The notes below the pieces were generated by a model. It was not told the origin of the DNA. It did not search any database and saw only the letters and a list, made by a program, of their open reading frames with translations. A stretch of 64,000 nucleotides of DNA from an uncultured Oscillospiraceae bacterium (GTDB lineage: Bacteria; Bacillota; Clostridia; Oscillospirales; Oscillospiraceae). Shown piece by piece: positions 21,759 to 43,251 of the stretch (its first letter is position 1; every line of letters begins with the position of its first letter). A program made the position numbers and the translations under genes. The DNA lies in the NCBI GenBank assembly GCA_947629775.1, contig CANRFA010000006.1:23459-87458 (forward strand). Direction: 5' to 3'.

Positions 21759-22442
21759 TCAGAGGGCCTTTCCGGCGAGAATGTAGCGGATGGCGGGCCG
21801 GCCTCCGGTCTGGTAGTCGATGTTGCTGGAGATCTCCCCGCAGTCCGCCATGTAGCTGACGTAGCGGCGGATGGTGATGCGGGACAGACCGACCTGCTCG
21901 CTGGTGAAGCTCTCCCGGGGATGAGCGGCAAAGAAGGCGCGGACATGCTCCAGGGTGCAGAGGTTGAGCCCCTTTGGCAGCGGCTGAGAGGAAGGGGCGG
22001 AGGGGAGACCCCGGCCTCGGACCAGTTCGTCGATGGAGTTCTGATCCAGGCAGCCCGGCCCCCGTTCCAGGACGCCCCGGGTATCCCGGAAGCGGTCCAG
22101 CGCCTGCTGGAACCGCTGGCGCTGAAAGGGTTTCACCAGGTAATCGAGAACGCCGCGGGCCAGGAGGGCCTGGACGATGGCGGTGTCGTTGGCGGAGGTG
22201 ACCATGATGATGGCGGGGATCCGCCCGATGGCGTGAAGCCGATCCACGAACTCCAGCCCCGTCATGCCGGGTGTGTAGAAGTCCAGAATGATGAGATCTA
22301 CCCTGTGAGTGTCCAGCCAGGCGAGTCCCTCCTGGCCGTCCCGGCAGATGTGGACCACCTGAAAGGCCGGATCTGTTTCGACATACTGGCGATCAATGGC
22401 GGCTACCATGGGATCGTCTTCCACGATCAGGACCTTGTACAT
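21759..22442 (-). CDS. CitB/DcuR-type response regulator
   Basis: Receiver 'MYKVLIVEDDPMVAAIDRQYVETDPAFQVV'; C-terminal HTH 'FTSEQVGLSRITIRRYVSYMADCGEI'. Confidence 0.93.
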   Translation of the reverse strand: MYKVLIVEDDPMVAAIDRQYVETDPAFQVVHICRDGQEGLAWLDTHRVDLIILDFYTPGMTGLEFVDRLHAIGRIPAIIMVTSANDTAIVQALLARGVLDYLVKPFQRQRFQQALDRFRDTRGVLERGPGCLDQNSIDELVRGRGLPSAPSSQPLPKGLNLCTLEHVRAFFAAHPRESFTSEQVGLSRITIRRYVSYMADCGEISSNIDYQTGGRPAIRYILAGKAL

Positions 22443-24192: not shown

Positions 24193-25896
24193 TCAGGAGA
24201 ACTGCTCCTGCAGATCCTCGCGGATGGAACGGAGATTGGGGTGGTTCAGGATCTTCATCTGCAGAGCGGGCCACTCAGCGTCGTCTGTCAGAAGCTTCAC
24301 CTGCCTGGCTATGGCGATGGCGCGATCTGCGGGGATCCCGCGGATGCCAAAGAGCGCGGAGACAAGCTCGTCCCTGCATTTCCCGTTCTCTCCCATCAGC
24401 AGGTAGAAGGATGCGCAGTACATATGCAGGGAAGTCAGATTGATCGGATCGTCTTTTGCCATGAGCTTACAGGCGTTCATGAGGAGGAGCGAGGCACCGG
24501 GCTGGGCCCTGGAGACCGTCAGGATCCAGATAAACTGCTGAGAGGCGTCGAACGGAGTCAGGTTGCGAAGAAGTTCCGCAACCTGCTCGGGGGTGAGCTT
24601 CGTCGCCAGGAAGACCTCTGAGGCGCCGCGCAGGATCTGAATCTGCAGGGCGAACGGGATGGACGTGAACTCCGAGGAGGTCAGCAGGTCGCGGACGACG
24701 GACAGAACCGCGGAGAGCTGTTCCCCGGACCAGGCGGGAGAACTCAGGACGGGCAGGCAGGTGTACCTGTAACGGGAGAGGTTGTCCATCAGCCAGCGGA
24801 ACATGGTGTCCCGTTCGGAGCCGCTGGCCCTGGCGATCAGGGACATCCACGCATCGAAGCAGACCGCCTGTACAGGTTCGAAGCACAGAGGAACGCCGGA
24901 GCCCGAGGGGGCGCTGTTTTCCTCCCCGTCTTCCGCACTGTCGTCTTCCTCTTCTTCTTCTTCTTCGTCGTCTTCCCCGTCCAGCAGACCGGCGCTTTTG
25001 TCCCAGATGCTGTCCTCTTCGTCGTATTCGTCCTCGTACTCATCGTATTCATCGTCCCCGTCCAGGTCCAGCTCACAGGTAAGATGGTCCCAGACCCGGT
25101 CGTAAGCGATGCACACCAGGCGGAAGGCTTTCATGAGAAGGCCGTTTTTCAGCAGGATTTCGATGTTTCTGTTCAGGTAGCCCTCAACCTCGGCCGCCAG
25201 ATCAAAGCACTCGTCATCGACGGGATTGCAGTCCTCGACCATGTATTCATTCAGAATCCGGTCCAGATGGACGTGCCAGCGGGCCTCCTGGCCGGGAAGG
25301 GGTTCCCGGTTCCGGTACAGATAGAGCTGCTCCCGGACTTCGGGATTCGATGCCACCAGGTCGCTCAGCAGGTTCCGGAGATCTGCGCGCTTCATGTTGG
25401 AGAGCATGGAGTTCCAGTCGGGCTCGGGTTCCTCGAAGTCGATGGAGTGATCCTCCGGAATGTCGACCATGTCGTCCATGGCATACAGGAGGGCTCCTAC
25501 GTGGGGGCAGATGTCATCCGCGCCACAACTGCACCAGTAGCTGAAGGCAGGCAGGTCGTCATCGTCCTCGCCGTCCTCATCCTCATCCTCATCCTCATCC
25601 TCATCCTCATCGTCTTCGTCGTCCTCAAAGTCCTCATCATCGTCCTCGTACCCGTCCTCGTCGTCTTCGTCATCCTCGGGATCCCAGAACAGCCCGTCGT
25701 CATCGTCATCGTCCTCATCCTCTTCGATGGTAACCTCGGCGTAGTAGCGATGGTCGTCAAGGACGATGGCATAGACCGTATCGTCGTCGTCAGCCAGTTC
25801 TGCCACGCGGTTGTGCTTCCACAGCCAGGCGCTGCGGGCTCTGGTCCTGGAAGAGACCTGATCTTTCCAGGCTTCCAGGGGAAGGTAGTGAAACAA
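24193..25896 (-). CDS. SWIM zinc-finger protein with hyperacidic insert
   Basis: 'FSYWCSCGADDICPHVGALLYA' (CxC...CxH SWIM motif); long Asp/Glu tract; TTG start 25896 with AAAGGAGG. Confidence 0.8.
   Translation of the reverse strand: MFHYLPLEAWKDQVSSRTRARSAWLWKHNRVAELADDDDTVYAIVLDDHRYYAEVTIEEDEDDDDDDGLFWDPEDDEDDEDGYEDDDEDFEDDEDDEDEDEDEDEDEDGEDDDDLPAFSYWCSCGADDICPHVGALLYAMDDMVDIPEDHSIDFEEPEPDWNSMLSNMKRADLRNLLSDLVASNPEVREQLYLYRNREPLPGQEARWHVHLDRILNEYMVEDCNPVDDECFDLAAEVEGYLNRNIEILLKNGLLMKAFRLVCIAYDRVWDHLTCELDLDGDDEYDEYEDEYDEEDSIWDKSAGLLDGEDDEEEEEEEDDSAEDGEENSAPSGSGVPLCFEPVQAVCFDAWMSLIARASGSERDTMFRWLMDNLSRYRYTCLPVLSSPAWSGEQLSAVLSVVRDLLTSSEFTSIPFALQIQILRGASEVFLATKLTPEQVAELLRNLTPFDASQQFIWILTVSRAQPGASLLLMNACKLMAKDDPINLTSLHMYCASFYLLMGENGKCRDELVSALFGIRGIPADRAIAIARQVKLLTDDAEWPALQMKILNHPNLRSIREDLQEQFS
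25575..25610. repeat. Hexanucleotide microsatellite (CCTCAT)x6 coding for (Asp-Glu)n on minus strand
   Basis: Six exact tandem copies read directly. Confidence 0.95.
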
Positions 25897-26133
25897 GCAA
25901 ATTTCCTCCTTTCGGGGTATGCCTTCGTGGATCAGGCCCACCGGTCGGCGGACAGGCAGGCCGCTTTCTTCAACAGTATAGCACAGGAAAAAAGAGAAGG
26001 GAACGATGATTTTGAAAAATGGGCCGGACCCCCTGCGGGCAGCCTGCGGAGAGGGAAACCGGAGAACAGGCACGGCGTGCCCGGCGGAGCCAGGCCGGAA
26101 AAGACGTTCCTCGGAAAAGATCCGGTCCGGATC

Positions 26134-26208: not shown

Positions 26209-29200
26209 ATGGCAGGAACGGGAGAGAGACGGATTCTGGACGGACAGATGTATCAGATGGAGGAGATCCTGCCAGGGGTGGACCGGAGAAGCCGGTTTAT
26301 CCTCTGCCGGGATCCGGCGGGCAGACGCTTTGTGTGCCCGGAGGAGGTCTGGAGCGGGGAAGTTCTGCCGGGGGAGGGACCGGCTGGTTCCGGAGCATCG
26401 GAGCCGGTTTCCCGGCCGGGCGCACCGGTTGCGCCCACCCAGTCCGGGCTTACCAGAGAACAGAAGTTGAAGCGGCGGATCGATCTCTTCCGCACCCGTT
26501 TTCAGGGACGGCGGGACGTATACGCCCAGCGGTTCGAGAGCCAGACCAGCGGGAAGAAGGGGTACAGCTTCGCCTGCGGCAACCGGTGGTCCCCGGGATT
26601 ATGCGACCTGAAAAAGGGGAAGAAGTGCTCTGCGGCCTGTCCGAATCGGAGATTTCTGGCCATGACAGATGAGGTAATAGAAGCCCATCTGCTTGGCAAA
26701 GACGAAACCTGCGGCGATGTGCTGGGGGCGTATCCACTGGAGGAGGGGGATACCACCCGCTTTCTCGCGCTGGATCTGGACGAGGGAGACTGGCGGGAAG
26801 ACGTGAAAGCACTGCGGGAGACGTGCAGGGAGATCGGGGTGGTTCCCGCCGTGGAGCGCTCCCGCTCCGGCGATGGGGCCCACGTCTGGTTCTTTTTTGC
26901 CGGATCCGTGCCGGCGGAGAAGGCCCGCCGGTTCGGAAGCGGACTGCTGACCCGTACCATGGCCCGCCGCCACGAGCTCTCCTTCGACTCCTATGACCGC
27001 ATGTTTCCCAGCCAGGACACCCTGCCAAAGGGCGGTCTGGGAAACCTGATCGCGCTGCCCCTGCAGGGAAGAGCGAGAAAGAAGGGCAACTCCATGTTCA
27101 TCGATGAGGAGTTCGTGCCCTATGGGAATCAGTGGGCCTATCTGGCGGGACTTCCTCTGCTGACCGGGGAGCAGCTGGAGGCGTATCTGCTGCAGCTGGG
27201 TGGAGATACGGACCTGGGCGAGCTGACGCCGGTGGAGGAGAGCGGAGACGGGAAGCCTCTGCCCGGCCGGCGGGCGCCCCGGATCCTGCGGCGGGAGGAT
27301 TTTCCGCCCCAGGTGCGGGTGGGGCTGTCCTCCATGGTCTTCGTGGAGAAGGCCGGACTCTCCCAGGCGGCCATGAACGCCGTCCGCCGCCTGGCCGTAA
27401 TGCGCAATCCGGAGTATGTCCGCCGGCAGAGACTGCGGATCCCGATGAACAGCTACGGGAAGATCGATACGCCCCGCATCTTTGACTGCGGCTATGAGGA
27501 CGAAGACTTTCTGGGGGTGCCCCGGGGCTGCAGGCCGGCGCTGGAACAGATGCTGAGGTCGGCCGGCGTCCCATATCAGATCCGGGATGAACGTACATCC
27601 GGTCGGCCCATCCGGGTTTCCTTCACCGGCGAACTGCGCCCGGATCAGGTGCCGGCCGCCCAGGCCCTGCTGGAGCGGGAGACGGGAATCCTGCAGGCTC
27701 CGCCCGCCTTCGGTAAGACGGTCACGGCGGCCTGGCTGATCGCCCAGCGGAAGGTGAGCACCCTGATCCTGGTGGACTCCAACGCCCTGCAGGAGCAGTG
27801 GAAGAAGTCCCTGGAGGAGTTTCTGGAGATCTCGGAGCCGTTGCCGGAGGAAGCGCCCCGCCGGGGGCGGAAGAAGAAGCGGTCCGCCATCGGGCAGCTG
27901 GGGGCGGGCCGGGAGACCCGCAGCGGCATCGTGGACATCGCCAACCTGCAGTCGATGTCCGAAAAGGAGGAGAGCGAGGCGGAGCGGGTGGTGAAGTCGT
28001 TCATCGGGGAGTACGGAATGATCCTGATGGACGAGTGCCACCACGCGGCGGCCCGGACCTATGAGCGGGTGCTGAACGCGGCTCCCGCCCGCTATATCCA
28101 CGGCCTGACCGCCACGCCCATCCGGAAGGACGGTATGGAGCCCATCCTCTTCATGCAGCTGGGACCGGTCGTGTTCCGGCATAAGGGAGAAGGGGACGGC
28201 CTGCTGCGGTTTGTGGTCCCCCGCTTTACAAAGCTGCGAATGGGGGAGAACGCCGTCATTTATGACGCCTACGAGGCCATGATCAGCCACGAGGAGCGCA
28301 ACCGGCAGATTCTGGCGGACGCCCTGGCGGCGGTGGAGCGGGGACGCACTCCTGTTCTGCTGACAGAGCGCCGGGAACACGCCCGTCGGCTGGTGGAGCG
28401 GCTGGAGGGAAAGGTGGATCACGTGATTCTCCTGTGGGGCAGCGACTCCGGAAAGGAGAAGCGGGCCAGACTGGAAACCCTGCGGGCGGTGCCTGCGGAG
28501 GAATCCCTGGTGCTGGTGGCCACCGGCCGCTATGCGGGAGAGGGCTTCGACCTTCCCCGGCTGGATACTCTGCTGCTCACCATGCCGATATCATGGAAGG
28601 GGACCCTGGAGCAGTACGTGGGCCGGCTGCACCGGCTCTATGAAGGGAAGAAGGAGACCGTGGTTTTCGACTACGTGGACGCCCATGTTCCCATGCTGGA
28701 GCGGATGTACCGCAAGCGTCTTCACGCGTACGGCGAGATGAAGTACCGGGTGTGGAGCGGACAGCCGGAGGCGATCGTCTCCCGCATCTTCAGCGGCGAG
28801 GACTGGCGGGAGCCGTTCCGGGAGGATCTGGGTCTGGCCCGGAAGAGCGTGCGGATAGTCAGCCCCCGGCTGTCGGAGTCCACCATTCAGGCGCTGCTTC
28901 CATCGCTGCGGGAGACTGCGGCCGGCGGCGTGGCGGTTAAGGTCCATACCCGGCGGCCGGAAGACGGTCGGACCAGGAAAGCGGCCTCGGATACCTCCGC
29001 CTGCATCCGCATGCTGAAGGAAGCTGGGGTTTCCGTGGAGACGGACAGTCGGTACTGTCAGTGCTGCGCGGTCCTGGACGGCCAGGTGGTGTGGCACGGC
29101 AGCGTGTGTTTCCTGGGGCCCCGGGACGAGGAGGACAGCACCTTCCGCTTTGAAAATCCGGAGGTGGCCGGCGATCTGCTGGACGCCATGGAGGAGTACC

Positions 29201-29241
29201 GAAGAGGGGAGGTCATGGAGCAGCTGAGCCTGCAGCTGTGA
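26209..29241 (+). CDS. TOTE-type archaeo-eukaryotic primase domain + SF2 (DEAH-like) helicase + C-terminal PLD-like domain fusion
   Basis: Primase 'FLALDLDEGDW' (DxD) and 'GDGAHVWFFF' (sxH); helicase 'QAPPAFGKTVTAAWL', 'ILMDECHHAAA', 'GLTATPIRKDG'; C-terminus 'CQCCAVLDGQVVWHGSVCFLG' PLD-like. Confidence 0.88.
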   Translation: MAGTGERRILDGQMYQMEEILPGVDRRSRFILCRDPAGRRFVCPEEVWSGEVLPGEGPAGSGASEPVSRPGAPVAPTQSGLTREQKLKRRIDLFRTRFQGRRDVYAQRFESQTSGKKGYSFACGNRWSPGLCDLKKGKKCSAACPNRRFLAMTDEVIEAHLLGKDETCGDVLGAYPLEEGDTTRFLALDLDEGDWREDVKALRETCREIGVVPAVERSRSGDGAHVWFFFAGSVPAEKARRFGSGLLTRTMARRHELSFDSYDRMFPSQDTLPKGGLGNLIALPLQGRARKKGNSMFIDEEFVPYGNQWAYLAGLPLLTGEQLEAYLLQLGGDTDLGELTPVEESGDGKPLPGRRAPRILRREDFPPQVRVGLSSMVFVEKAGLSQAAMNAVRRLAVMRNPEYVRRQRLRIPMNSYGKIDTPRIFDCGYEDEDFLGVPRGCRPALEQMLRSAGVPYQIRDERTSGRPIRVSFTGELRPDQVPAAQALLERETGILQAPPAFGKTVTAAWLIAQRKVSTLILVDSNALQEQWKKSLEEFLEISEPLPEEAPRRGRKKKRSAIGQLGAGRETRSGIVDIANLQSMSEKEESEAERVVKSFIGEYGMILMDECHHAAARTYERVLNAAPARYIHGLTATPIRKDGMEPILFMQLGPVVFRHKGEGDGLLRFVVPRFTKLRMGENAVIYDAYEAMISHEERNRQILADALAAVERGRTPVLLTERREHARRLVERLEGKVDHVILLWGSDSGKEKRARLETLRAVPAEESLVLVATGRYAGEGFDLPRLDTLLLTMPISWKGTLEQYVGRLHRLYEGKKETVVFDYVDAHVPMLERMYRKRLHAYGEMKYRVWSGQPEAIVSRIFSGEDWREPFREDLGLARKSVRIVSPRLSESTIQALLPSLRETAAGGVAVKVHTRRPEDGRTRKAASDTSACIRMLKEAGVSVETDSRYCQCCAVLDGQVVWHGSVCFLGPRDEEDSTFRFENPEVAGDLLDAMEEYRRGEVMEQLSLQL

Positions 29242-30642: not shown

Positions 30643-32109
30643 TTATTTCAGCTCGAAGGAGACGAAGTCGAAGGTGCCGCCTTTGCCCTCCACGCTGAAG
30701 TACAGGGCCTCCTTCTCGCCCAGGCCCTCGGGCAGAGCGCCGGTAAAGCCCTTCTGGGTGGTGCAGGTCTCCACGGGGATGCGGCAGACGACGTCGCCCT
30801 TCTCCTGGGTGCGGACGAGGACGGCGCAGCCGTTGCCGTAGCCCTGGAGGTTGACCGTGATCTCCCGGGTCTCCCGGAGGTCAAAATACTTGAAGCCCAC
30901 GGTGCAGTCCGTGCAGAAGTTGGAGACGTACTGGTCTGGGCCCTCCTCCCGGTCCCCGCCCTTCTGGGTCAGGAAGGGGCACATGCCCCGCTTGTACTTG
31001 ATCATGGAGAGAAAGCGGGTGCCGTTGCGGCCGTAGACGTTGCAGGCAATGTAGGAGGGATAGGTTCCCTTGCCGGCCAGAGGGCCGTTGTTGAGGCCGC
31101 AGGAGGTCATCTCCGCCTGATAGAACTTCCCGTCCTCGAAGCGGATCTCCTCCGCGCAGCCCTGGCGGGAGGACTGCTTGCGGTTGGAGTGGCGGTGGTA
31201 GAACACGTAGTAGTGACCCTCGATCTCGATCAGGCTGCCGTGGGTGTTGCCGGTGTCCATGCGGGCGTGCTTCGGGTCCGGCACGCCGGGCAGCCCGATG
31301 TCTCCGCAGCTGACCAGGATGCCGCCGTACTGGAAGTCCGCGTTGGGCTTGTCGCTGACGGCGTAGCACAGGTTGTGGCTGTTGAGGGAGGAGTAGATGA
31401 AGTAGTACTTCCCGTTGAACTTGCGCATGGAGCTGGCTTCCCCGAAGGGCTGGCTCTCGTAGGGGGTGCCCTTGGCCTCCTCGCCGGTGAGGACGCCCAT
31501 GTAGTGCAGGTCGTCGCCGGAGACGACGGTCAGCATGTCGCTGGTGTCCAGCTCGAACCACATGGGGCCGTGCTCGGTGGGCTTGGAGCCGTCCAGCAGG
31601 ATGGGGTTCCCCCCGAAGGCAAACCCCGTGTAGAGATACAGCCGTCCGTCCTCGTCCATCAGGCAGCCGGGGTCAAACTGGAAGGGCTCGTTGCGCTTTC
31701 CAATGGGCGTCCCGTCCTTATATTTCACATAGCCGTAGAACTCGTACTTGCCGGCGGGCTCGTCGCATACGGCCACGGAGATCATCTTGGTGCCGCCCAT
31801 GAAGTAATAGAGGTAGTAGCGTCCGTCCGGGCCCACCACCATGTCCGGGGCGGCCAGGCCGTTCGTAACCCGCACCTTGGGGGCGGCGGGATCCTGCTCC
31901 CGTTTATAGATGCAGCTGTGGTACGTCCAGTTGCCCAGGTCGTCCACGGGGGCGGACCAGCAGACGTAGTCGCCCAGGCAGAAATTGATGCCGTTGAACA
32001 GGTCGTGGGAGCCGTAGACATAGACGCGGCCGTTTACCACGTGGGGCTCGGCGTCCGGGACGTATTCCCAGCTGGGCATGTAGGGGTTGAAAGCCTGTCT
32101 GGTTTTCAT
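30643..32109 (-). CDS. Glycoside hydrolase family 43 protein
   Basis: 'NPYMPSWEYVPDAEPHVVNGRVYVYGSHD', 'AAPDMVVGPDGRYYLYYF'. Confidence 0.9.
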   Translation of the reverse strand: MKTRQAFNPYMPSWEYVPDAEPHVVNGRVYVYGSHDLFNGINFCLGDYVCWSAPVDDLGNWTYHSCIYKREQDPAAPKVRVTNGLAAPDMVVGPDGRYYLYYFMGGTKMISVAVCDEPAGKYEFYGYVKYKDGTPIGKRNEPFQFDPGCLMDEDGRLYLYTGFAFGGNPILLDGSKPTEHGPMWFELDTSDMLTVVSGDDLHYMGVLTGEEAKGTPYESQPFGEASSMRKFNGKYYFIYSSLNSHNLCYAVSDKPNADFQYGGILVSCGDIGLPGVPDPKHARMDTGNTHGSLIEIEGHYYVFYHRHSNRKQSSRQGCAEEIRFEDGKFYQAEMTSCGLNNGPLAGKGTYPSYIACNVYGRNGTRFLSMIKYKRGMCPFLTQKGGDREEGPDQYVSNFCTDCTVGFKYFDLRETREITVNLQGYGNGCAVLVRTQEKGDVVCRIPVETCTTQKGFTGALPEGLGEKEALYFSVEGKGGTFDFVSFELK

Positions 32110-32128
32110 GGTTACGTTTCCTCCTCAG

Positions 32129-32146
32129 GCCACGCGCAGGCGTGGC
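32129..32146 (-). other. Intercistronic hairpin (GCCACGC-GCAG-GCGTGGC)
   Basis: Between GH78 and GH43 genes. Confidence 0.7.
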
Positions 32147-32148
32147 GT

Positions 32149-34716
32149 CTATATGGTTGCCAGGGGACAGGATCTGCTGTAAATGCCGCTGCCGAGGGAG
32201 TGTGTGGCGCCGTCCGGAAGAGTCAGGTGGCAGCGGGCCCCGAAGGGAACCTGGACTGTGACCGTAAAGACACCCTTTTCCCATCGCCACTCTGCGGCGG
32301 TCAGACCATAGGGAGTCCGTGTGGAAGCTTTTGCCCAGGTAAGATCTCCGCCGGGCACGGGGCGCACGGAAAAGACCTTCCAGCCCGGTTCCTCGGCCTC
32401 CAGTCCGACCACCCGCCGGTAGAGGAAATCCCCCACGGCGCCGCTTGCGTAGTGGTTGTAGGAGATCATCAGATCCGTACCGTCGTCGCCGATGGGGCAG
32501 ACGCCGTTTTCGTCCAGGCCATCCCAGCGTTCCCAGATGGTTGTGGCGCCCATCTTCACCTCGTAGAGCCAGGATGGGCACTTTGTATTCAGGAGCATGC
32601 GATAGGCAGTGTCCGCATGGCCGTTGTCCGCAAGGGCGAAGAGCAGGAAGGGAGTACCGGGGAAACCGGTTCCGATGCGGTATTCCCGCCGCTCCGCCAG
32701 GCGGACCAGGTTGTCTGCGGCGTTCTGCCTGGCCTGGGGCGTGGCGAACATGTCCAGCCAGAGAGGCAGCACGTATCCGGTCTGGAACTGCTCTCCCAGC
32801 AGGGTGCCGTTGCCGTCGGTCAGGAGACTGGAGAAGGCGTCCGCCACCCGATCGCTGTAATCCGCATAGCGCGTGGCGTCTTCGCTTTCTCCGAGGATGG
32901 CGGCGATGCGGGAGAGAAGGCGGGTGGTGTTGCGCAGGCTGGCGGTGGCGGTCCACTTTGCCCGTCCCTGCCACTGGCTCATTCTGGGGACATCCGGAGC
33001 TACCCAGTCTCCGAAGTGGAGAGTGGCTGGGGTGTCCCAGATGTATTTTTTCTTCCCGATGCTGAACAGGCCGGCCCAGAAGATGCAGGCCTTAACGTAC
33101 TTCTTCATGGAGTCGTAACTGTCCCGCAGGATCTGCGTGTCGCCCCTGGCCTGATATTCCGCCCAGGGAACCAGGATACAGGCGTCGTCCCACCAGTCCA
33201 CCGCCATATCCGGCATGGTGGTGGGAAAGCCGTAGCCCTGGGGCGGAATCGTATTGGGGAAGCCGCCTCCTTTACGCTGTTCTGCGCGGAGATCCAGCAG
33301 CCATTTGTCCAGAAAGCGGCTCATGTCGAAATTGAAGCAGGCGGTGGGAGAGAACACGGCGATGTCGCCGGTCCATCCCATGCGCTCGTCCCGCTGAGGG
33401 CAGTCTGTGGGAATGTCCATGAAGTTGGAGGTGGCGCCCCAGACAATGTTGCTCTGGAGCTGATTGAGCAGGGGGTTCGAGCAGGAGAAGTCGCCAATGT
33501 GCTCCACGTCCGAGCAGAGGACCAGGCCTGTGACCTGCACATGCTCGCGGTCGATACCCGTTACACTGATGTAGCGGAACCCCATGTAGGTCAGGGTGGG
33601 GGCGTAGGTCTGTTCTCCTTCCCGGCAGGTATAAAGAATGGCAGCCTGGGCGGTTCGCAGAAAGCGGGTGTTGAGCGTGCCGTCGGGATTCAGAATCTCG
33701 GCGTGGCGCACCGTGACCTTCTGCCCCTGGCGGCCCTGGAGTTTCAGCTCCACCACACCGGCGAAGTTCTGCCCGAAGTCGTAAATCAGGGAACCGTCCG
33801 GCCGGGGCGTACAGGAGACGGGACGCAGACGGGTCCGCACCCGCACCGGAGCGCCGAAGTCCGCCCGGATGCGAGGGGAGATCTTCAGCTTTTCCGGGGC
33901 GGCGGGGCCCCAGCGGGCGGTGTCATACCGGCAGGTGGCGTCATAAGTCTCCCCGTCGTAGAGGTCCGCCATCTTCCAGGGACCGTCTTCGGTTACTTCC
34001 CAGGAGGAGTCTGTGCCCAGAATTTCCCGGCTTCCGTCCGCGTACTGGAGATGGAGTTCCAGAAGCAGTGCCTGGCGGTCCGCTGTGATCCGGTTGACCC
34101 GGGTGAAAACGAAGGATCCCACCGCCCAGCCGCCGGCCACGACGACGCGCAGTTCGTTTTCTTCCTTCAGAAGAGAAGTGATATCCAGCGTCTGGTACTG
34201 GAGGTTGGCCCGGTAGGAGGTGAAACCGGGGGCGAAGTACCGGTCTCCGGCCCGGGACCCGTTGACGTAGAGCTCGTATATGCCCATGGCAGTGGCAAGC
34301 ACCCGGGCCCGGACGATCGGCTTTTTCAGAGAGATCCGCCGGCGGAAGGTCATGGGAAGCGGGGAGACCTTCTTCTCCGTGAAGCGGTAGCGGGGATCGC
34401 TGATCCACTGTCCGGTCCAGGGAGTATCCATCCGGCCGGTTTCAAAGACCAGGGAGGCCCGGGCGGTTTCTCCGGCGTCGTCCTCTGCCACAAGGGTGGC
34501 GGTATACGTTGTGAAGGGACGCAGAGCGGGCCCTTCGTAGGGAATGGCGATCTGACGGTCCGTTTCCACGGACCAGGTTCCCACCCGCAGGGTGGCGCGG
34601 CGCAGAAGCGCGTCTGACCGGTCGCTGTCCAGAGCGAAGGAAAAGCGGGGATGGGGCCGGTCTGTGATACAGCCGGCGGTCAGATTTTCTACGGTAAAAC
34701 GAAGAACCTTCAGCAT
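32149..34716 (-). CDS. Alpha-L-rhamnosidase, GH78 family
   Basis: 'GMGFRYISVTG'-type region (YMGFRYISVTGIDREHVQ), 'MDIPTDCPQRDERMGWTGD', 'GATTIWERWDGLDENG'. Confidence 0.95.
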   Translation of the reverse strand: MLKVLRFTVENLTAGCITDRPHPRFSFALDSDRSDALLRRATLRVGTWSVETDRQIAIPYEGPALRPFTTYTATLVAEDDAGETARASLVFETGRMDTPWTGQWISDPRYRFTEKKVSPLPMTFRRRISLKKPIVRARVLATAMGIYELYVNGSRAGDRYFAPGFTSYRANLQYQTLDITSLLKEENELRVVVAGGWAVGSFVFTRVNRITADRQALLLELHLQYADGSREILGTDSSWEVTEDGPWKMADLYDGETYDATCRYDTARWGPAAPEKLKISPRIRADFGAPVRVRTRLRPVSCTPRPDGSLIYDFGQNFAGVVELKLQGRQGQKVTVRHAEILNPDGTLNTRFLRTAQAAILYTCREGEQTYAPTLTYMGFRYISVTGIDREHVQVTGLVLCSDVEHIGDFSCSNPLLNQLQSNIVWGATSNFMDIPTDCPQRDERMGWTGDIAVFSPTACFNFDMSRFLDKWLLDLRAEQRKGGGFPNTIPPQGYGFPTTMPDMAVDWWDDACILVPWAEYQARGDTQILRDSYDSMKKYVKACIFWAGLFSIGKKKYIWDTPATLHFGDWVAPDVPRMSQWQGRAKWTATASLRNTTRLLSRIAAILGESEDATRYADYSDRVADAFSSLLTDGNGTLLGEQFQTGYVLPLWLDMFATPQARQNAADNLVRLAERREYRIGTGFPGTPFLLFALADNGHADTAYRMLLNTKCPSWLYEVKMGATTIWERWDGLDENGVCPIGDDGTDLMISYNHYASGAVGDFLYRRVVGLEAEEPGWKVFSVRPVPGGDLTWAKASTRTPYGLTAAEWRWEKGVFTVTVQVPFGARCHLTLPDGATHSLGSGIYSRSCPLATI

Positions 34717-34737
34717 GGGTTCAGTCTCCTTCCGAAA

Positions 34738-34765
34738 GCCGGGCGGCCCCGCAGGGCCGCCCGGC
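34738..34765 (-). other. Intercistronic hairpin (GCCGGGCGGCCC-CGCA-GGGCCGCCCGGC)
   Basis: Perfect 12-bp stem between GPH symporter and GH78 genes. Confidence 0.75.
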
Positions 34766-34777
34766 GGAATGGGAAGC

Positions 34778-36232
34778 TCAGTCTTTCTTCCGTGCGGCGA
34801 TGGCCTTCTGCTCCTCGGGGAGATTCTTCTCTACGGTCCAGAGGAACATCAGCAGGGCGCACAGGGCGTAGGCGACGGTTTCAATCCAGATGTAGCTGAC
34901 GCCGATGGTGACTTCTACCGTCACGCTCTGGGAAGCCAGAGCGGCGCCGGGTGTGGGCGCCACATAGCCGGCTACGCTGAGCATGGCCATGAAAATGGAG
35001 TTGCAGATCGGGGTGGCGGCCACCATGATGGAGCTGTAGAGGGACATGGTGAGACCGTCTGTGCGGATGCCGCTCTTATACTCGATGTGATCCAGTACGT
35101 CCGCCAGCATGGCGAGAATCAGATAGGCGGCGGGGGAGGACCCCAGGCATTTGAGGGCTACGCCGATCGCGGTGGGGACGATATTGCCCCCGCCAAGACC
35201 GGCCAGAACGCCGCCGGCCACGCCCAGGATCATGCCCACGATGGTTACCGTCCGTTTCCCGAACTTATTTGCCAGGGGCACCACAAAGGCGGCGGCCACC
35301 GCCATGGGGATGGCGCCCATGACGGCCAGGATGGTCTGAACGATGCCATAGTCTCCGTTGAAGGGAGTGGTATCGATGACCCACTGACAGAAGTAGCTCA
35401 TGGAACCGTTCTTCATGGCGCCGGACCACTGGAAGAGGAGGTAGAAGATCATGACGATCCACCACCACTTCTCGCTGGTGACGGCCTTCAGCTGTTCCCC
35501 GATGGAGGGGGCGCCGGCTTTTTCTTCCACTGCGGCGCCGGAAAGCAGTTCCTCCGTGACGCGCTCGCGGGTGAACTGGTACTGAAGCAGAATGGTAAGG
35601 GCGGAGAAGATGGCGATCCCCAGCATCACCAGGAACCACAGGTTCTGGTCTTCGTGGAGCACGTTGGAGACCAGAGCGGGGAAGATCATGGAGCCCACGC
35701 CCATGACGCCCAGACCCGCGATGTTGGTGAAGGAGGCCAGACCGGCCCGCTGGGAGCTGTTGCGGGTGGAGACGGGTACCAGAGTGGAGTTGGCCGTATT
35801 GTAGATGGGGTAGGCTACGGCGTAATAGAGGTTATAAGCGATGGCGACCCAGACCATTCTGGCGGTTCCCTGGAAGGGAACGATGAACATGAGAACGCTG
35901 GCGATGGAGAGGGTGAGCGCGGAGAGCAGAACCCAGGGACGGGCCTTGCCGGCAAGAGAGTGTGTGCGTTCGATGAGCTGCCCTACGATGAGGTTGGCGG
36001 CGACAATGAAGATGGTGGAGATCAGCTGCAGGCCGGAGAGAAAGGCGGTGTCCAGCAGCAGCACGTCTGTGAAGTACTTGTTGAGGAAACTGGAGAAGAT
36101 ACCAGAGGAAAGCAGCGCGCCGAAGGGGCCGATGAAGTAGCCGAAGAGCATCTCCGGCAGACGGACTTCGGAAGAAGTGATGCGGGACCGCAGCAGAGGA
36201 CTGTTCCAGATCCCGCCGGTTTCCTTACGCAT
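34778..36232 (-). CDS. GPH/MFS family sugar:cation symporter
   Basis: 12-TM; 'LPEMLFGYFIGPFGALLSSGIFSSFLNKYFTDVL', 'GSMSYFCQWVI'; located among GH genes. Confidence 0.88.
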   Translation of the reverse strand: MRKETGGIWNSPLLRSRITSSEVRLPEMLFGYFIGPFGALLSSGIFSSFLNKYFTDVLLLDTAFLSGLQLISTIFIVAANLIVGQLIERTHSLAGKARPWVLLSALTLSIASVLMFIVPFQGTARMVWVAIAYNLYYAVAYPIYNTANSTLVPVSTRNSSQRAGLASFTNIAGLGVMGVGSMIFPALVSNVLHEDQNLWFLVMLGIAIFSALTILLQYQFTRERVTEELLSGAAVEEKAGAPSIGEQLKAVTSEKWWWIVMIFYLLFQWSGAMKNGSMSYFCQWVIDTTPFNGDYGIVQTILAVMGAIPMAVAAAFVVPLANKFGKRTVTIVGMILGVAGGVLAGLGGGNIVPTAIGVALKCLGSSPAAYLILAMLADVLDHIEYKSGIRTDGLTMSLYSSIMVAATPICNSIFMAMLSVAGYVAPTPGAALASQSVTVEVTIGVSYIWIETVAYALCALLMFLWTVEKNLPEEQKAIAARKKD

Positions 36233-36267
36233 AAGGCATGATTCCTTTCGTACATGAGTTGCCGGAC

Positions 36268-38679
36268 TCAGATGGTCCGGACAGGAATGGAGACGCTGCA
36301 GGAGAGAGTGCCGTCCGAGACGGACAGGGTGACAGGCCCTTCGCTGTCCGCCTTTACAACGGCCAGAGCCTCTCCGTAGTAGGTATCCGTTTCGCTGCCG
36401 GCGAAGCCTTTCGCATTGAAGGGGCAGGCGCTGCCCAGTCCTGCCAGGGTGCCGCCCTGGACGGAGACCTTGAGAATTCCCCGTTCCAGAGGCTTCAGGA
36501 TGCCCGCATTATCCGTGTACTTCAGGCGAATGAAGGCCAGACGGCCGGGACGGACATCCGGGGCCTCGGGAATGGCCTGCAGGCGGGTCTCCGAGGAGGC
36601 GGTTTTCAGACTGGCGCGGCCCAGCTCGTTGCCCGAGGCGTCAAAGCTGATAGCCTCGATGGTGCCGTCCTCGTATACACAGCGGAAGCGGGCGATACAG
36701 TCGTTTTTCAGAGCCTTCCGGCCCACGCTTCTGCCGTTGATCTTCAGTTCCACGGAGGCGGCCCGGGCATAGACCTCCACGTCCGCCTTGTTTCCGCTGT
36801 ACCCGTGCCAGCTCCAGCTGTCGATGGCGTTGGACATCTTCCAGGCCGAGGGGGAGTGCTTGTCTCCGGTGTGATTGACCGGACAGACGCCCAGGAAGGG
36901 GCCTTTGTCCTGTTCCAGAGCGACCCGGGTATAGAGGGCCTCGCACAGGGGGCGGCCGGTCAGATCCACCCGGCCGGAACCGGCGGTGACCCAGCCCAGA
37001 CCGCCGTCAAAGCGGGGCGCGTAGTCGCTGTACTCCCAGCTGCCGACCATGACTTCGCCCATGTAGTCCATTCCGGCCCACACGAAGTCGCCCACCAGGC
37101 GGGGCTCCACCTTGGCCAGTTCGCGGAATTTGTAAGCGTCGTTGCAGAAGGTTTCGCTGCCGAGAATCAGGCGCGACGGGTATTTTTTCAGATCGTGGCG
37201 GTAGCGGTAGATGCCGTAGTTGTATCCGGCGATATCCATCTGCGCGAACGCGTCTTTCGTGCGCCAGTCGCAGGGCGGAATTGTGGCGCCCCGCTTCATG
37301 AACTCGTCGCCCAGCAGGCCGGCCATGTCGTTGAAGAACTTGCTGCCGACCGCCTTTTCCTTTTTGGGTTTGCCGTCCGCTTTCCGCTTTTCCGCCTTCT
37401 GAGCTTCTTTCTTCGCCTTCTCGTCGCTGTAGACGCCGAAGCCCACGGAGGAGAGGAAGTTGAAGAAGATGTTAATGCCGCAGGTGACGGGGCGGCTGTC
37501 GTCCAGACCATGGAGAAAGTCGGTCAGCTGGCGGGTAAGGGCGATTCCCTTCTTCTGGGCGGTCTCGGAGACCTCGTTGCCGGTGGAGTACAGGATCACG
37601 CTGGGGTGATTATAGTCCTTTTCCACCATGTCCGTCAGATCCTGGCGCCACCAGTCGTTGAAGTACGTTACATAGTCGTGTTCGGTCTTGTGGATATACC
37701 AGTGGTCGATGTATTCGTCCATGACCAGGATACCCAGGTGGTCGCAGGCGTCCAGCAGGTACTTTGAGCAGGGGTTGTGGGCGGAGCGGATGGCGTTGTA
37801 GCCGTTTTCCTTCATCAGGCGGATCTTGCGCCACTCCGCGTCCTCGTAACAGCGCGCGCCCAGCACGCCGTTGTCGTGGTGGATACAGGCCCCCTGGATG
37901 ATGATGCGGCTGCCGTTCAGGAGAATGCCGTGGCGGCCCCAGGAAAGCGTGCGGATGCCGAAGGTGGAGCTGGCGGTATCTGCGCCGAAGAAGGCGTGAC
38001 AGAGGTAGAGAGCGGGAGAATCCGGGCTCCACAGACTGGCGTCCGGAATGGAAAGGGTCAGAACGGCCTTTCCGTTTTCGGCCCGGGCCTCGCCGGAGGC
38101 GGCCAGGTTGCCCGCGCTGTCCCGCACTTCCACCCGCACCGGGCCGTCCCCCTGGGTGAGGACCGTGACCGCGATGGAGGCGGGCTGGATGCTCAGCGTA
38201 CGGATGCGAAGACCATTGAGGAGAATGTGGGCGTCCGCCGGACCGGTCCACAGCCGGACCGGGCGGTAGATGCCGGCGCCGGAGTACCAGCGGGAGTTGG
38301 GCTGGTCCGCGTTGCGGGCGATGACCTGCAGAAGGTTTTCCTGGCCCGGGAGCAGTTTTCCGGTCAGGTCCACGTAGAAGTTCGTGTAGCCGTACGGGCG
38401 GAACATCAGGGACTCTCCGTTCAGAGAGACCTCCGCGTTATGATAGACACCTTCAAACTCCAGGACGGTCTTCTGTCCGACGACTTCGGGGCCGGGGACG
38501 AAGGTCTTCTCATAGAGATAGTCGTAGCCCTCGTACCAGCCGGTGTTGACACCGCCGGCGGACAGCTCGCTTCTGGACTCCGAAATCATGGCGTCGTGAG
38601 GGATGGATACGCTGCGGCCGGGACCCGGGTCCCCCAGATGCCTGCACGTCCAGCCGTCGTGAAAGAGATTCTGTTGCAT
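36268..38679 (-). CDS. Glycoside hydrolase family 2 protein
   Basis: 'VSIPHDAMI', 'KTVLEFEGVYHNAEVSLNGE', 'MKENGYNAIRSAHNPCSKYLLDACDHLGILVMDE', 'SVILYSTGNEV'. Confidence 0.95.
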   Translation of the reverse strand: MQQNLFHDGWTCRHLGDPGPGRSVSIPHDAMISESRSELSAGGVNTGWYEGYDYLYEKTFVPGPEVVGQKTVLEFEGVYHNAEVSLNGESLMFRPYGYTNFYVDLTGKLLPGQENLLQVIARNADQPNSRWYSGAGIYRPVRLWTGPADAHILLNGLRIRTLSIQPASIAVTVLTQGDGPVRVEVRDSAGNLAASGEARAENGKAVLTLSIPDASLWSPDSPALYLCHAFFGADTASSTFGIRTLSWGRHGILLNGSRIIIQGACIHHDNGVLGARCYEDAEWRKIRLMKENGYNAIRSAHNPCSKYLLDACDHLGILVMDEYIDHWYIHKTEHDYVTYFNDWWRQDLTDMVEKDYNHPSVILYSTGNEVSETAQKKGIALTRQLTDFLHGLDDSRPVTCGINIFFNFLSSVGFGVYSDEKAKKEAQKAEKRKADGKPKKEKAVGSKFFNDMAGLLGDEFMKRGATIPPCDWRTKDAFAQMDIAGYNYGIYRYRHDLKKYPSRLILGSETFCNDAYKFRELAKVEPRLVGDFVWAGMDYMGEVMVGSWEYSDYAPRFDGGLGWVTAGSGRVDLTGRPLCEALYTRVALEQDKGPFLGVCPVNHTGDKHSPSAWKMSNAIDSWSWHGYSGNKADVEVYARAASVELKINGRSVGRKALKNDCIARFRCVYEDGTIEAISFDASGNELGRASLKTASSETRLQAIPEAPDVRPGRLAFIRLKYTDNAGILKPLERGILKVSVQGGTLAGLGSACPFNAKGFAGSETDTYYGEALAVVKADSEGPVTLSVSDGTLSCSVSIPVRTI

Positions 38680-38731
38680 GGGAGAACATACGCCTCGCTT
38701 TCTGAAAAATTGCGTCAGGGGCTATGCGTCC

Positions 38732-38758
38732 GCCCCCTTCCGGTTTCCGGAAGGGGGC
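38732..38758 (-). other. Intercistronic hairpin (GCCCCCTTCCGG-TTT-CCGGAAGGGGGC)
   Basis: Perfect 12-bp stem between small membrane protein and GH2 genes. Confidence 0.75.
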
Positions 38759-38824
38759 AGGCGCGGGAAGAATTCAGATATGTTCCCGTTTCCCGCCTTG
38801 ACTTGCGGGGCGGGCCAGGGAATG

Positions 38825-39223
38825 TCAGGCGGATTTTGCCTTGCCCAGGAAGTTGGTGATGATGCTCAGCAGCAGGCCCACGCCTGTTACGGCGACGAAG
38901 GTGAGGAAGTGCTGCAGAGAGCTGGCCTCGTCCAGGCCGGCCACCACGTTGCCCAGCTGGTTCATCTGAGAGGAGAAACTGAGCACAAGGGCATAGGCGA
39001 AAAGCGTCACAGTGACGATGGAGATCAGGTTATAGATGGGGCGGGGGCCGGTTGCCATGACCAGAATCACTCCGGCAATTTCCAGAATGGCGGCGGCCAG
39101 CAGCAGGGTGGAGACGGTGCCCACCCGATTGGCTACCGTACCGTTGAGCACAAAGCCGGCGATGCCGAAGGCCGCGACAACGATGCCGAGATAGACGCCC
39201 AGCGCGCGTTTGGTAGGTTTCAT
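38825..39223 (-). CDS. Small 4-TM membrane protein, function unknown
   Basis: 133-codon ORF with four hydrophobic segments, 14 bp downstream of GH3. Confidence 0.7.
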   Translation of the reverse strand: MKPTKRALGVYLGIVVAAFGIAGFVLNGTVANRVGTVSTLLLAAAILEIAGVILVMATGPRPIYNLISIVTVTLFAYALVLSFSSQMNQLGNVVAGLDEASSLQHFLTFVAVTGVGLLLSIITNFLGKAKSA

Positions 39224-39236
39224 GGTATCTGCCTCC

Positions 39237-42200
39237 TTATTCCTGTTCTTTCTGTTTTCTGCCGGTTACGGAGCCCTTTACGCACAGAGCGAAAGATGCT
39301 ATGGCCAGAATTCCGCAGCCCGCTTCCACGCCGGTCAGCAGGTTCTGCCACCAGGTCCGTACGTGGACGATCTCGGTATCGGGATTGAAATTGTTCATGG
39401 CGGCGCTGCTGACGCCGTTGTAGAGGGCGTAGCGCAGGGCCAGTTTCATCTTCTGCTGGAAGCCGCTGTCCGCCCGGATTTTCTCCATGTTGGCGGCGGA
39501 ACTCATGGAGCCGATGTTGGAGGCGTCGTAGGCCGTGCTGGTGAGACAGCCGGTGCCGCCGCCCATGACCACGTCGCGCCAGTTCATGTAGTCGGCGCCG
39601 TTGATCATATCCGTGATGATGAAGCCGGTGAAGCCCCATTCATTGCGCACGATCTGCTCCAGAAGACCGGAGTGGGCGCCGGCGTAGACGGTACCGGCAC
39701 GGTTGAAGGCGGTCATGATGCTGCCGGAATAATTGCTGGAGAGCACGGCCTGGAAAGCCCGGAGTTCGTTCTCCCGGGCGGCCTGCTCGGTCATGAAGGT
39801 GGAAACGCCGGAGCGGTTCAGTTCCTGGTGATTGAACGCCAGGTGCTTGGGTTCGGAAAGCAGACCCTTGGAGCGGCAGCCCTTGCACAGGGAAGTGCCC
39901 ATCAGACTGGTCAGCATGGGATCTTCGGAGTAGTACTCATGGTTGCGGGCGCAGTAGGGAGTGCGGTGCAGGTTGAGGCCCGGGGCGATGATGGAGGCGA
40001 TGTTGCTCCAGAGTCCTGTCTCGCCGAAGAGGATGCCCTCCCGCTCCGCCAGTTCCTTATTGAAGGTGGCCGCTACGATGGGTTCGGTGGGCATGGTGCT
40101 GGAGGAATAGTTGGCGTTGGTTTCGCTGTTGTCCACATAGGTGGGTTCGTCCGCGGACGTATTGGCGTCCCAGTTGGCGTTGTAGCCGGGAACCTGGTCA
40201 TAGGCGAAGCCAATGGGGCCATCGTGGTTGACAATGGCGGGGAAGACGATGGATTCAATCTGCTCCAGGTTGTCGCCGGCGTGCTCGATGAAGTTGACGG
40301 CCTCTTCCAGGGTCATCTGATCCACGAGCTGATCCCAGGCGGAATCGTCCCAGTCCTTCACGCCGGCAAAGAGTCCGGTGGAAGGATCCGTGATCATGAA
40401 GTCGGCGGCCACCAGACCGCTGTCCACGCCCCACGAAACGGCGTCGCCGCCGGTGGTAAACTCATAGTTGCTGTTGGTGAGGCCCACCATCATTTCGTCG
40501 GTGGGGGTCAGATTCTCCACGGTCTTCCAGCCCTTCGTCCAGTCGGCGCGGGTGGTGTATTCCACGGAGTCGGGAATCAGTTTGTTCAGATCCATGTTCT
40601 GCAGGGCGTTCTGCACATTCTCGGAATACGTGCTGATATCCCGGGAGAGGAGGTTCCAGACCTGCGCGTTTTCGGCGCGGATCACATCGGAAGAAGCGGT
40701 GGAGACCAGTCCTTCCTGGCTGCCGGTCTTTGCGGCCAGCACATTGTTGAGCGCCTCGTGGGCGCCGTTGCCGATGGCGAAGTAGTAGTCGCCCTCGTCC
40801 AGAACCCAGGCGCCGGGTGTGCCGTCCGCCTTGGTGACCGTCTCATCGTAGCTGGCCATGAAGGCAGGATCAAACTCGATGGTGACGGTTTCGCTCTGGC
40901 CGGGGTTAAGAATGCCGGTTTTGGCGAAGTCCAGCAGCTGAATGGCGGATTTCTCCAGGCCGCCTGCGGTATAGGGGGCCTGTACGTAGAGCTGAACCAC
41001 GCTCTTGCCGGCTGTGCTGCCGGTGTTGGTGACCTCCACGACGGCGGTTCCGGTGCTGCCCGGGGTTACATCGACGCTGATCAGCTTCTGTTCAAACGTG
41101 GTGTAGCTGAGGCCGTAGCCGAAGGGATAGGAGACTTCGGAGGCATAGTTCCAGTTGCTGCCGCTGGTGGAGCCGGCGGGATCCGTGGCCTTGCCCTGGT
41201 TCAGGACAGAGTCCTCGTAGCGGGTTTCGTAGTACTTGTATCCGGTGTAGATGCTTTCGGTTTCGGCCAGGTACCAGTCGGCCTTGTCCGCCTCGGTGAG
41301 ACCGGGATTTTCGGACTGGGTGCTGTTGGAGTAGAGGTAGAGACCGAAGTTCTGCATGGCGGGCGCGGAGACGGAGCTGACGGCGAAGGTATCCGGCAGG
41401 TGACCGGAGGGATTGGCGTCGCCGCAGAGAACGTCCGCCACGCCCAGGAAGCCGTTCATGCCGGGAACGCCGGTCCAGAGGATGGAATCAATGTCCGGAT
41501 CGTTTTTCAGTTCGTCGATCTCCATGGCGTTGTCCGTATTCAGAAGGACGATGACCTTGCTGCTGTGGGCCTTCGCCAGGTCGATCATGGCGCGCTCATA
41601 GTCGGACAGGGCCAGAGGACGTTCGTAGTGGTCGCCCTCGGTGGAGTTGATCATGTTCGGACTGTAGTCGGCGGCTTCGGAGTTGTCCCGGGAGAGAACC
41701 ACCACCGCGGCGGTGCCGTCGGCGCTGGCAAGGATCTCGTCGGTGTAGAGGCTGGCGGGAATTTCGCCAACGGGATAGATGGCGGGAGGTTCATAGGTAG
41801 CCGTGAAGCTGGGGATCAGACCGTGCGCGGGCGCGCCGCCGCCACCAAAGCCCCGGCGGGCATAGGCAAAGGCCGCCTCGCTGGCATAAAGGGCCTTCAT
41901 GGTTTCGTTTACGCTGAAGCCCTTTTCCGCCAGGGCCTCTTCGATGCCGTAGATGGTCTGCCCCTCGGGGGCGTCCACCGAGGAGCCGATCATGCCGGCG
42001 ATGGTGGGGAAGTGGCTGTTCATGCCCCAGAGCGTGACGGTTTCGCTGTCCTTTTTCAGGGGCAGGGCGCCGTTGTCGTTCTTCAGCAGAACAGCTCCTT
42101 CGCTTCCGATCTCTTCCGCCAGGGCCACCTGGGCGTCAATAACCTCCTGAAGGCTGGCGTAGTCGGACTGGAAGTACTGTCCGCCGGTGTTCTTCAGGGT

Positions 42201-42341
42201 TACAGTAGTGGTTCCCAGACGGGAGTTCAGGAAGTCGGTGTACTGGTTTGCGATCTGGCTCAGACCGAAGGCGATGGCCAGCAGAGCGCAGAAGATGCCG
42301 GTCAGTCCCCGGTAGAGACCTGTGTGGGGTTTCTTTTTCAT
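39237..42341 (-). CDS. Membrane-anchored GH3 family protein with reversed domain order
   Basis: GH3 C-domain (SEGAVLLKNDNGALPL...GVPGMNGFLGVADVLCGDANPSGHLPDTF, SYPFGYGLSYTTF) precedes catalytic domain (EPKHLAFNHQELNR, AFQAVLSSNYSGSIMTAFN, GFTGFIITDM). Confidence 0.9.
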   Translation of the reverse strand: MKKKPHTGLYRGLTGIFCALLAIAFGLSQIANQYTDFLNSRLGTTTVTLKNTGGQYFQSDYASLQEVIDAQVALAEEIGSEGAVLLKNDNGALPLKKDSETVTLWGMNSHFPTIAGMIGSSVDAPEGQTIYGIEEALAEKGFSVNETMKALYASEAAFAYARRGFGGGGAPAHGLIPSFTATYEPPAIYPVGEIPASLYTDEILASADGTAAVVVLSRDNSEAADYSPNMINSTEGDHYERPLALSDYERAMIDLAKAHSSKVIVLLNTDNAMEIDELKNDPDIDSILWTGVPGMNGFLGVADVLCGDANPSGHLPDTFAVSSVSAPAMQNFGLYLYSNSTQSENPGLTEADKADWYLAETESIYTGYKYYETRYEDSVLNQGKATDPAGSTSGSNWNYASEVSYPFGYGLSYTTFEQKLISVDVTPGSTGTAVVEVTNTGSTAGKSVVQLYVQAPYTAGGLEKSAIQLLDFAKTGILNPGQSETVTIEFDPAFMASYDETVTKADGTPGAWVLDEGDYYFAIGNGAHEALNNVLAAKTGSQEGLVSTASSDVIRAENAQVWNLLSRDISTYSENVQNALQNMDLNKLIPDSVEYTTRADWTKGWKTVENLTPTDEMMVGLTNSNYEFTTGGDAVSWGVDSGLVAADFMITDPSTGLFAGVKDWDDSAWDQLVDQMTLEEAVNFIEHAGDNLEQIESIVFPAIVNHDGPIGFAYDQVPGYNANWDANTSADEPTYVDNSETNANYSSSTMPTEPIVAATFNKELAEREGILFGETGLWSNIASIIAPGLNLHRTPYCARNHEYYSEDPMLTSLMGTSLCKGCRSKGLLSEPKHLAFNHQELNRSGVSTFMTEQAARENELRAFQAVLSSNYSGSIMTAFNRAGTVYAGAHSGLLEQIVRNEWGFTGFIITDMINGADYMNWRDVVMGGGTGCLTSTAYDASNIGSMSSAANMEKIRADSGFQQKMKLALRYALYNGVSSAAMNNFNPDTEIVHVRTWWQNLLTGVEAGCGILAIASFALCVKGSVTGRKQKEQE

Positions 42342-42410
42342 AGGGCTCCTCCTCTTCTTCAGTTGGGGTAGCCCGATTTTAGCATGATGACGGAAGAGGG
42401 TGGCGAATCT

Positions 42411-42443
42411 GGCACAGATGACGGGAAATACGGCACAACTGAC
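42411..42443 (+). promoter_or_regulatory. Candidate LytTR operator: direct repeats GGCACAGATGAC / GGCACAACTGAC, 21-bp spacing
   Basis: 10/12 identity, starts at 42411 and 42432, immediately upstream of a TTGCAA-N18-TATAAT promoter. Confidence 0.65.
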
Positions 42444-42444
42444 A

Positions 42445-42474
42445 TTGCAAATTGTAGGAAATGTCGGCTATAAT
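42445..42474 (+). promoter_or_regulatory. Promoter of LytTR/AgrC-like operon
   Basis: TTGCAA-N18-TATAAT. Confidence 0.6.
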
Positions 42475-42537
42475 AACCGACAGGAGCAATTTCGCGGCGG
42501 ATATCCTGCACCGGAATGCAGAAAAGGGGGAGTCGAG

Positions 42538-43251
42538 ATGGTCTACATCTGTATTGTAGAGGATGACGACGCCTACGGAGATGTTCTGCAGAACTACATT
42601 GTGCAGTACGGAAAAGAGACTGAGACGGAGTTTCACGTGTCCCGCTACCGGAACGGCGCGGATTTTCTGGAGCACTACAGTACCCAGACGGATATCGTAC
42701 TGATGGACATCGACCTGCCGGTGCTGGACGGCATGACGGCGGCGGAGTCCCTGCGGAAGCTGGACTCCCTGGTGGTGCTGATCTTTGTCACCAACCTGGC
42801 CCAGTACGCCATTCAGGGGTACTCGGTGGACGCCATGGACTATGTGATCAAGCCCATCCGTTACTCCCACTTCGCCATCAAGATGGACAAGGCCATGCGG
42901 AACCTGCCCAGCCGGGAAGACTGGTTCGTCATTCCGGGGAAGGACGGGATGCTGCGCATTGCCACCAGCCGTATCTATTACCTGGAGAGCAGCGGCCACC
43001 AGATCCTCTTTCATACCGCAGAGGGGGTATTTCCGGTGCGCGGTACCCTGAAGAGCATGGAGGAGCGCATGAGGGGTCAGGGGTTTTCCAGGCCCAACAA
43101 CTCCTTCCTGGTGAATCTCCACCATGTTCAGACCATCCGGGCGGATCAGATTGTGGTTCACGGGGAGGAGTTTACTATTGGGCGTTCCCGGAAGCAGTCC
43201 TTCCTGGACGATCTGAACGCCTACCTGGGGGGACGGGTGATCCATGGATAG
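42538..43251 (+). CDS. LytTR-family response regulator (AgrA-like)
   Basis: 'MVYICIVEDDDAYGDVL', 'DIVLMDIDLPVLDGMTAAE', 'FSRPNNSFLVNLHHV'. Confidence 0.93.
   Translation: MVYICIVEDDDAYGDVLQNYIVQYGKETETEFHVSRYRNGADFLEHYSTQTDIVLMDIDLPVLDGMTAAESLRKLDSLVVLIFVTNLAQYAIQGYSVDAMDYVIKPIRYSHFAIKMDKAMRNLPSREDWFVIPGKDGMLRIATSRIYYLESSGHQILFHTAEGVFPVRGTLKSMEERMRGQGFSRPNNSFLVNLHHVQTIRADQIVVHGEEFTIGRSRKQSFLDDLNAYLGGRVIHG

Follow-up and report, generated by a model that had tools for sequence, protein, structure and literature searches.

Domain plan of the primase–helicase gene

The stretch of DNA analysed here, referred to as the window, comprises 64,000 nucleotides of contig CANRFA010000006.1 (assembly GCA_947629775.1) from an uncultured Oscillospiraceae bacterium. 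We investigated a gene in the window whose product joins an archaeo-eukaryotic primase (AEP, or Prim-Pol) domain, a superfamily 2 (SF2) helicase core, and a tail with a phospholipase D (PLD) fold. The gene and its domains are as follows:

26209..29241, + strand: AEP-TOTE primase/SF2 helicase/PLD-fold protein, 1010 aa
26209..26400, + strand: N-terminal small beta domain, aa 1–64, replacing the DUF1653 of relatives (putative homology, from alignment only)
26476..27183, + strand: AEP (Prim-Pol) domain, aa 90–325, with D189, D191, H225, D263 and conserved C123/C132/C140/C144
27631..28638, + strand: SF2 helicase core, aa 475–810, with GKT, DECH, TATP and QxxGRxxR; XPB/UvsW/RadD-like
28729..29238, + strand: tail with PLD-fold domain, aa 841–1010, with a single degenerate HKD motif, C950-x-C952-x4-D957, and W962-H-G-S-x-C967

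The reading frame is open for 1010 codons, from the ATG at 26209 to the stop at 29239–29241, and this start is backed by the aligned N-termini of homologues. A mechanical call of the open reading frame had begun at 25084, which is an upstream extension across the gene on the opposite strand, and was rejected in favor of 26209. The frame is unbroken, and its codon pattern is normal (GC at third codon positions 0.78, compared to 0.43 at second positions). Recent transfer was also considered on compositional grounds and discarded, as the GC content of the gene (~0.65) falls within the range of the surrounding window.

Pfam searches identified AEP-TOTE (PF22548) at aa 90–325 with E = 1.1e-85 (287 bits vs. 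a curated cut-off of 27) and ResIII at aa 475–639 (7e-21; DEAD 2e-7). Helicase_C was detected at 8e-4, which is under its curated cut-off. The region matching aa 1–64 in one relative, L008, was assigned to DUF1653 (PF07866) at 3e-24. The primase DxD is formed by D189/D191, accompanied by H225, and the helicase motifs GKT, DECH, and TATP lie at residues 502–504, 608–611, and 634–637, respectively. Together with the motif VI arginines, these represent the SF2 signature set (Walker A, DExH, SAT/TAT). The four cysteines of the AEP domain (C123/C132/C140/C144) are a possible zinc site.

Structural comparison of the full model supported both enzymatic domains. The AEP part matched crystal structures of the Prim-Pol domain of CRISPR-associated Prim-Pols (CAPPs; 7nqd and others) with template modelling (TM) scores of 0.79–0.83 on the target at 23–24% identity. 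In the 7nqd match (TM 0.82 on the target), the DxD aligned with that of the solved CAPP; in MpCAPP, the double substitution D177A/D179A abolished activity (PMC8211822). The helicase motor matched T4 UvsW, XPB, and RadD, with a similar SF2 core at about 16% identity, although in the window protein this motor is fused to AEP and PLD domains. Primase residues D189, D191, H225, and D263 were invariant in 59 of 59 rows of relatives, and so were helicase residues K503, T504, D608, E609, H611, R806, and R809.

The PLD-fold tail and loss of its HKD motif

The last 200 residues of the window protein had no Pfam match of their own; relatives with an intact HKD motif matched PLDc_2 at 3e-12 to 8e-11. An AlphaFold model of residues 841–1010, built on 42 sequences, reached a pLDDT of 89 and a pTM of 0.83. 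Its closest solved structures were Zucchini, Salmonella Nuc, and H. pylori NucT (E about 1e-7, TM 0.57–0.75), which are single-HKD PLD nucleases. Next among the PDB matches came pseudo-PLDs such as FAM83 (DUF1669), and the PLD-like domain of TrmBL2. Non-catalytic PLDs have a precedent in FAM83 (PMC6008594), and TrmBL2 is a DNA-binding chromatin protein according to its PDB title. Unlike the window protein, neither carries a fused primase or helicase.

The tail shares the fold and the conserved Asp and Gly of Nuc, NucT, and Zucchini, whereas the His and Lys of HxK(x)4D and the Asn of GSxN are all replaced by cysteine. C950 occupies the His position, C952 the Lys position, and D957 the Asp position (C950-Q-C952-x4-D957), with C953 just after the Lys position. 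C967 takes the place of the Asn and had been missed in the sequence-only reading of the window. No H.K motif occurs anywhere in the 1010-residue protein, which leaves no intact HKD elsewhere. Asp957, Trp962, and Gly964 of the PLD core were kept in 31 of 31 rows, and their invariance indicates that the fold has been retained. The window protein's PLD domain is thus best described as a probable pseudo-nuclease.

Loss of the motif was widespread in the family. An intact HKD was present in 12 of the 33 PLD-bearing tree rows, and in the alignment the His was retained in 11/31 relatives and the Lys in 18/31. Degenerate variants included N-R-D, R-R-D, T-R-D, Y-K-D, C-H-D, S-C-D, E-C-D, and others, and the intact and degenerate states required six changes on the tree. 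All seven members of the clade containing the window protein (SH-aLRT 97) were degenerate, so the loss of the His probably predates the window lineage. HKD loss is therefore clade-wide and recurrent in the family, and not peculiar to the window gene. The sequence-only reading had anticipated the order of primase, SF2 motor, and PLD, the primase and helicase motifs (DxD, His, GKT, DECH, and TATP), the cysteines in place of His and Lys, and the probable lack of nuclease function in the PLD, and each of these agrees with the results above. Its view that the window gene is unusual among PLD relatives in having lost the motif was not borne out.

Distribution and genomic surroundings

Relatives of the gene were patchily distributed. 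Among the 63 further genomes of the genus, an intact relative (51% identity), a broken copy (G152), and a fragment were each seen once, consistent with the earlier suggestion that the gene is accessory and not housekeeping. Primase–helicase relatives were also sparse in the family, class, and phylum, and a scan of genome contigs yielded a single relative. A PLD-less relative was matched in 872 of 5426 complete E. coli genomes, and IMG/VR contigs were among the places where relatives occur. Six of the 62 surveyed loci of relatives were split over frames. A phage origin was considered and rejected, as the phage records listed match the helicase half only, at 23–28% identity. Separately, at L011/L058 (G066:C28) an in-frame deletion takes out the entire primase domain, and its ends share 'QALL', as if produced by recombination at a short repeat.

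Genes of mobile elements recurred around relatives. Phage integrases (10), Schlafen AlbA_2 (8), HATPase_c_4 (8), and AbiEii (4) were the commonest families among 145 neighbor proteins. Transposase, RhuM, and DprA/ShosA-type genes also occurred beside relatives. An AlbA_2/HATPase_c_4 gene was paired with the primase–helicase at L051, L052, L057, L142, L231, L235, L238, L242, and L223, in PLD-bearing and PLD-less members alike. The AlbA_2 gene lay directly upstream on the same strand at most of its loci, and its presence corresponded to five changes on the tree. Tn7-type linkage was found at two of the 62 loci. At L054 (G063:C279, 13541–19475), the order is tnsA, an AEP-SF2-PLD gene with an intact HKD, and an rve/Mu-C transposase (tnsB); the primase–helicase and the start of the transposase share 4 bases, and the contig ends soon afterwards. 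At L048 (4703–12295, Sphingobium plasmid pTB1), an rve transposase, TniB, TniQ, and an AEP-SF2 gene lacking the PLD form one overlapping run. Tyrosine recombinases were present in L049. A PLD-less relative in E. coli M19 (L277, 3471–15901) lies in a tRNA-Thr island with genes for a small helix-turn-helix regulator (AlpA-like), YfjI, Gp2, the TOTE-AEP helicase, and DprA, adjoined by a CDI locus. Most loci of relatives had no conserved element genes.

Two further features of the window were recorded, the second as a side observation:

24193..26073, − strand: divergent neighbor encoding an acidic protein with a CxC-x6-CxH SWIM-type finger and long Asp/Glu runs (PF04434 at E = 0.14, below cut-off)
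30643–42341, − strand: glycan-use cluster with GH43, alpha-L-rhamnosidase, an MFS sugar transporter, GH2, and GH3

None of the 63 further genomes of the genus had the SWIM-type gene, and the only relative found within the genus is a weak paralogue from the window's own genome (C76). A conserved partnership with the primase–helicase was rejected given this absence and the lack of homology to proteins beside other members. SWIM-like neighbors first suspected in L244 and L258 proved to be a different family. Four genomes of the genus retain the sensor kinase and response-regulator genes found at 21.7–24.1 kb of the window; a symporter gene adjoins them in each, and three of the four also have the NMT1-like gene there. 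As none of these four keeps the SWIM-type gene, the primase–helicase, or the esterase at that place, this block is accessory. No transposase, restriction, or methylase gene was found among the window neighbors checked, in agreement with the sequence-only reading. Its description of the gene as solo holds at the window locus, but not for the family, in which relatives pair with an AlbA_2 gene and two loci have Tn7-like operons.

Interpretation and relation to known systems

TOTE conflict systems are defined by TPR, OB, TBP, and Effector components (Aravind et al. 2022, cited by PMC12458937). The window protein carries the primase domain named after TOTE (PF22548), and relatives bear the RefSeq name 'TOTE conflict system' protein. 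The gene is, however, single: no TPR, OB (CSD), TBP, or RNase H gene was seen among the Pfam-scanned neighbors between 19.4 and 45.8 kb, an interval in which a few genes (e.g., 21759–22442 and 42400–43251) were judged by sequence reading and not by Pfam. Strictly defined, TOTE systems do not include the window gene, and the earlier label 'TOTE-like' stands for the Pfam and RefSeq names but not for the partner genes.

A closer likeness is to the CAPP-Helicase type of Prim-Pol described by Zabrady et al. 2021 (PMC8211822). According to that work, non-CRISPR CAPPs mostly carry a helicase domain and are located in mobile and transposable elements. The AEP fold of the window protein matches CAPP crystal structures and has a CAPP-like active site. 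The cas1/cas2 operon link of CAPPs is lacking: Cas1 was not found in the 95%-complete genome, and no CRISPR-like repeat array was present near the gene (20–36 kb), where the only repeats were the acidic-codon repeats of the SWIM-type gene. A CRISPR link was therefore rejected, and the absence of cas1 places the protein with the non-CRISPR CAPP-helicase kind, with an added C-terminal PLD fold that has lost its HKD. Such a fold is unmentioned in the portion of PMC8211822 available.

We therefore favor, with a probability of about 0.6, the interpretation that the window protein is an accessory Prim-Pol/helicase drawn from the mobile gene pool, built on the non-CRISPR CAPP-helicase plan and bearing a pseudo-nuclease tail. 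Under this interpretation, the XPB/UvsW-like motor would translocate on DNA and open it where there are forks, R-loops, or damaged ends; on the single strand so exposed, the AEP domain fused to it would synthesize primers or short complementary strands. The tail probably began as a nuclease with a single HKD that, like Nuc, would have had to dimerize to be active, and in the window clade it would bind DNA and/or dimerize the protein. The role would lie in retaining or opposing foreign DNA, through mobile-element maintenance or intra-genomic conflict. The invariant primase and helicase residues, set against repeated HKD loss, can be read as indicating that priming and unwinding are the selected engine. 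Several points weigh against this interpretation. Within the window, no mobile-element gene adjoins the primase–helicase. The cysteine clusters may be active or bind metal, such that calling the PLD 'dead' is itself an inference. The tree came from a quick search under LG+G4, with 16 weakly supported inner branches and several deep forks open, and no biochemical data on any AEP-SF2-PLD protein were found in the open-licence literature.

Two more specific roles are compatible with this domain-level explanation, and confidences in them are not additive to one. One tentative proposal is that of a host defence effector: the protein would sense invading replicating DNA and stop it through unwinding and mis-priming, while the PLD tail would serve in regulation or in binding the target. 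This role would fit the patchy distribution and frequent breakage of relatives, the recurrent Schlafen AlbA_2/HATPase_c_4 pairing, the AbiEii, RhuM, and DprA/ShosA-type neighbors, a match to the PADLOC PrimPol model, and the TOTE conflict label in RefSeq, although the same neighbors suit mobile-element cargo equally and the window gene does not sit in a conserved multi-gene system of a known type. An initial study described the Ppol of a Thermus mobile element as a defence against environmental DNA (PMC7693054), but every ppol mutant was later shown to carry loss-of-function addAB mutations, and addAB loss alone raised transformation a thousandfold (PMC9751324), which weakens this precedent. 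It is likewise possible, though short of an even chance, that the protein is a replication or recombination factor of transposons, integrative and conjugative elements, or satellites, priming or repairing element DNA once it has transposed or been transferred, with the window copy a remnant or domesticated. The Tn7-like operons of L054 (tnsA–gene–tnsB) and L048 (tniB–tniQ–gene after an rve transposase), the L049 tyrosine recombinases and repeated integrase-like neighbors, the E. coli tRNA-Thr island with its AlpA-like and YfjI genes, the IMG/VR contigs, and the XPB/UvsW-like motor all point this way. Tn7-type linkage is nevertheless confined to two loci, conserved element genes are missing at most others and beside the window copy, and the Thermus element did not need its Ppol in order to replicate (PMC7693054).

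The remaining alternatives concern the tail. Its repurposing through C950, C952, C953, and C967, which would form a site for thiol chemistry or for metal (Zn or Fe-S) in the former active-site pocket, with redox control or altered chemistry, seems unlikely. Cysteines do occupy the three classic pocket positions (His, Lys, and Asn) in addition to C953, the tail has five compared to 0–2 in 28 of 30 relatives and four in the other two, and single cysteines occur at one of the PLD motif positions in other relatives (CHD, ECD, and SCD). The full set, however, was found in the window sequence alone. The nearest relatives have Arg at the Lys position and Arg, Asn, or Thr at the His position, and because Arg-to-Cys and Tyr-to-Cys are single-base steps, drift in a relaxed pocket is enough to account for most of the set without a new function. 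That the former pocket is a four-cysteine metal or redox-switch site, sensory or structural, serving the primase–helicase is also improbable. Gene decay, in which PLD erosion would be the first step toward loss of the whole gene, is more doubtful still: broken relatives are common, including G152 in the same genus, but the window frame is intact with all primase and helicase catalytic residues kept, and HKD loss is old, clade-wide, and found in otherwise intact genes.

In the favored interpretation of an accessory Prim-Pol/helicase with a pseudo-nuclease tail, the residue contrast would reveal which activity is under selection in the AEP-SF2-PLD family, namely unwinding and priming rather than cutting. 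The domain label alone is a poor ground for calling these proteins nucleases, and a large, little-studied family becomes directly testable.
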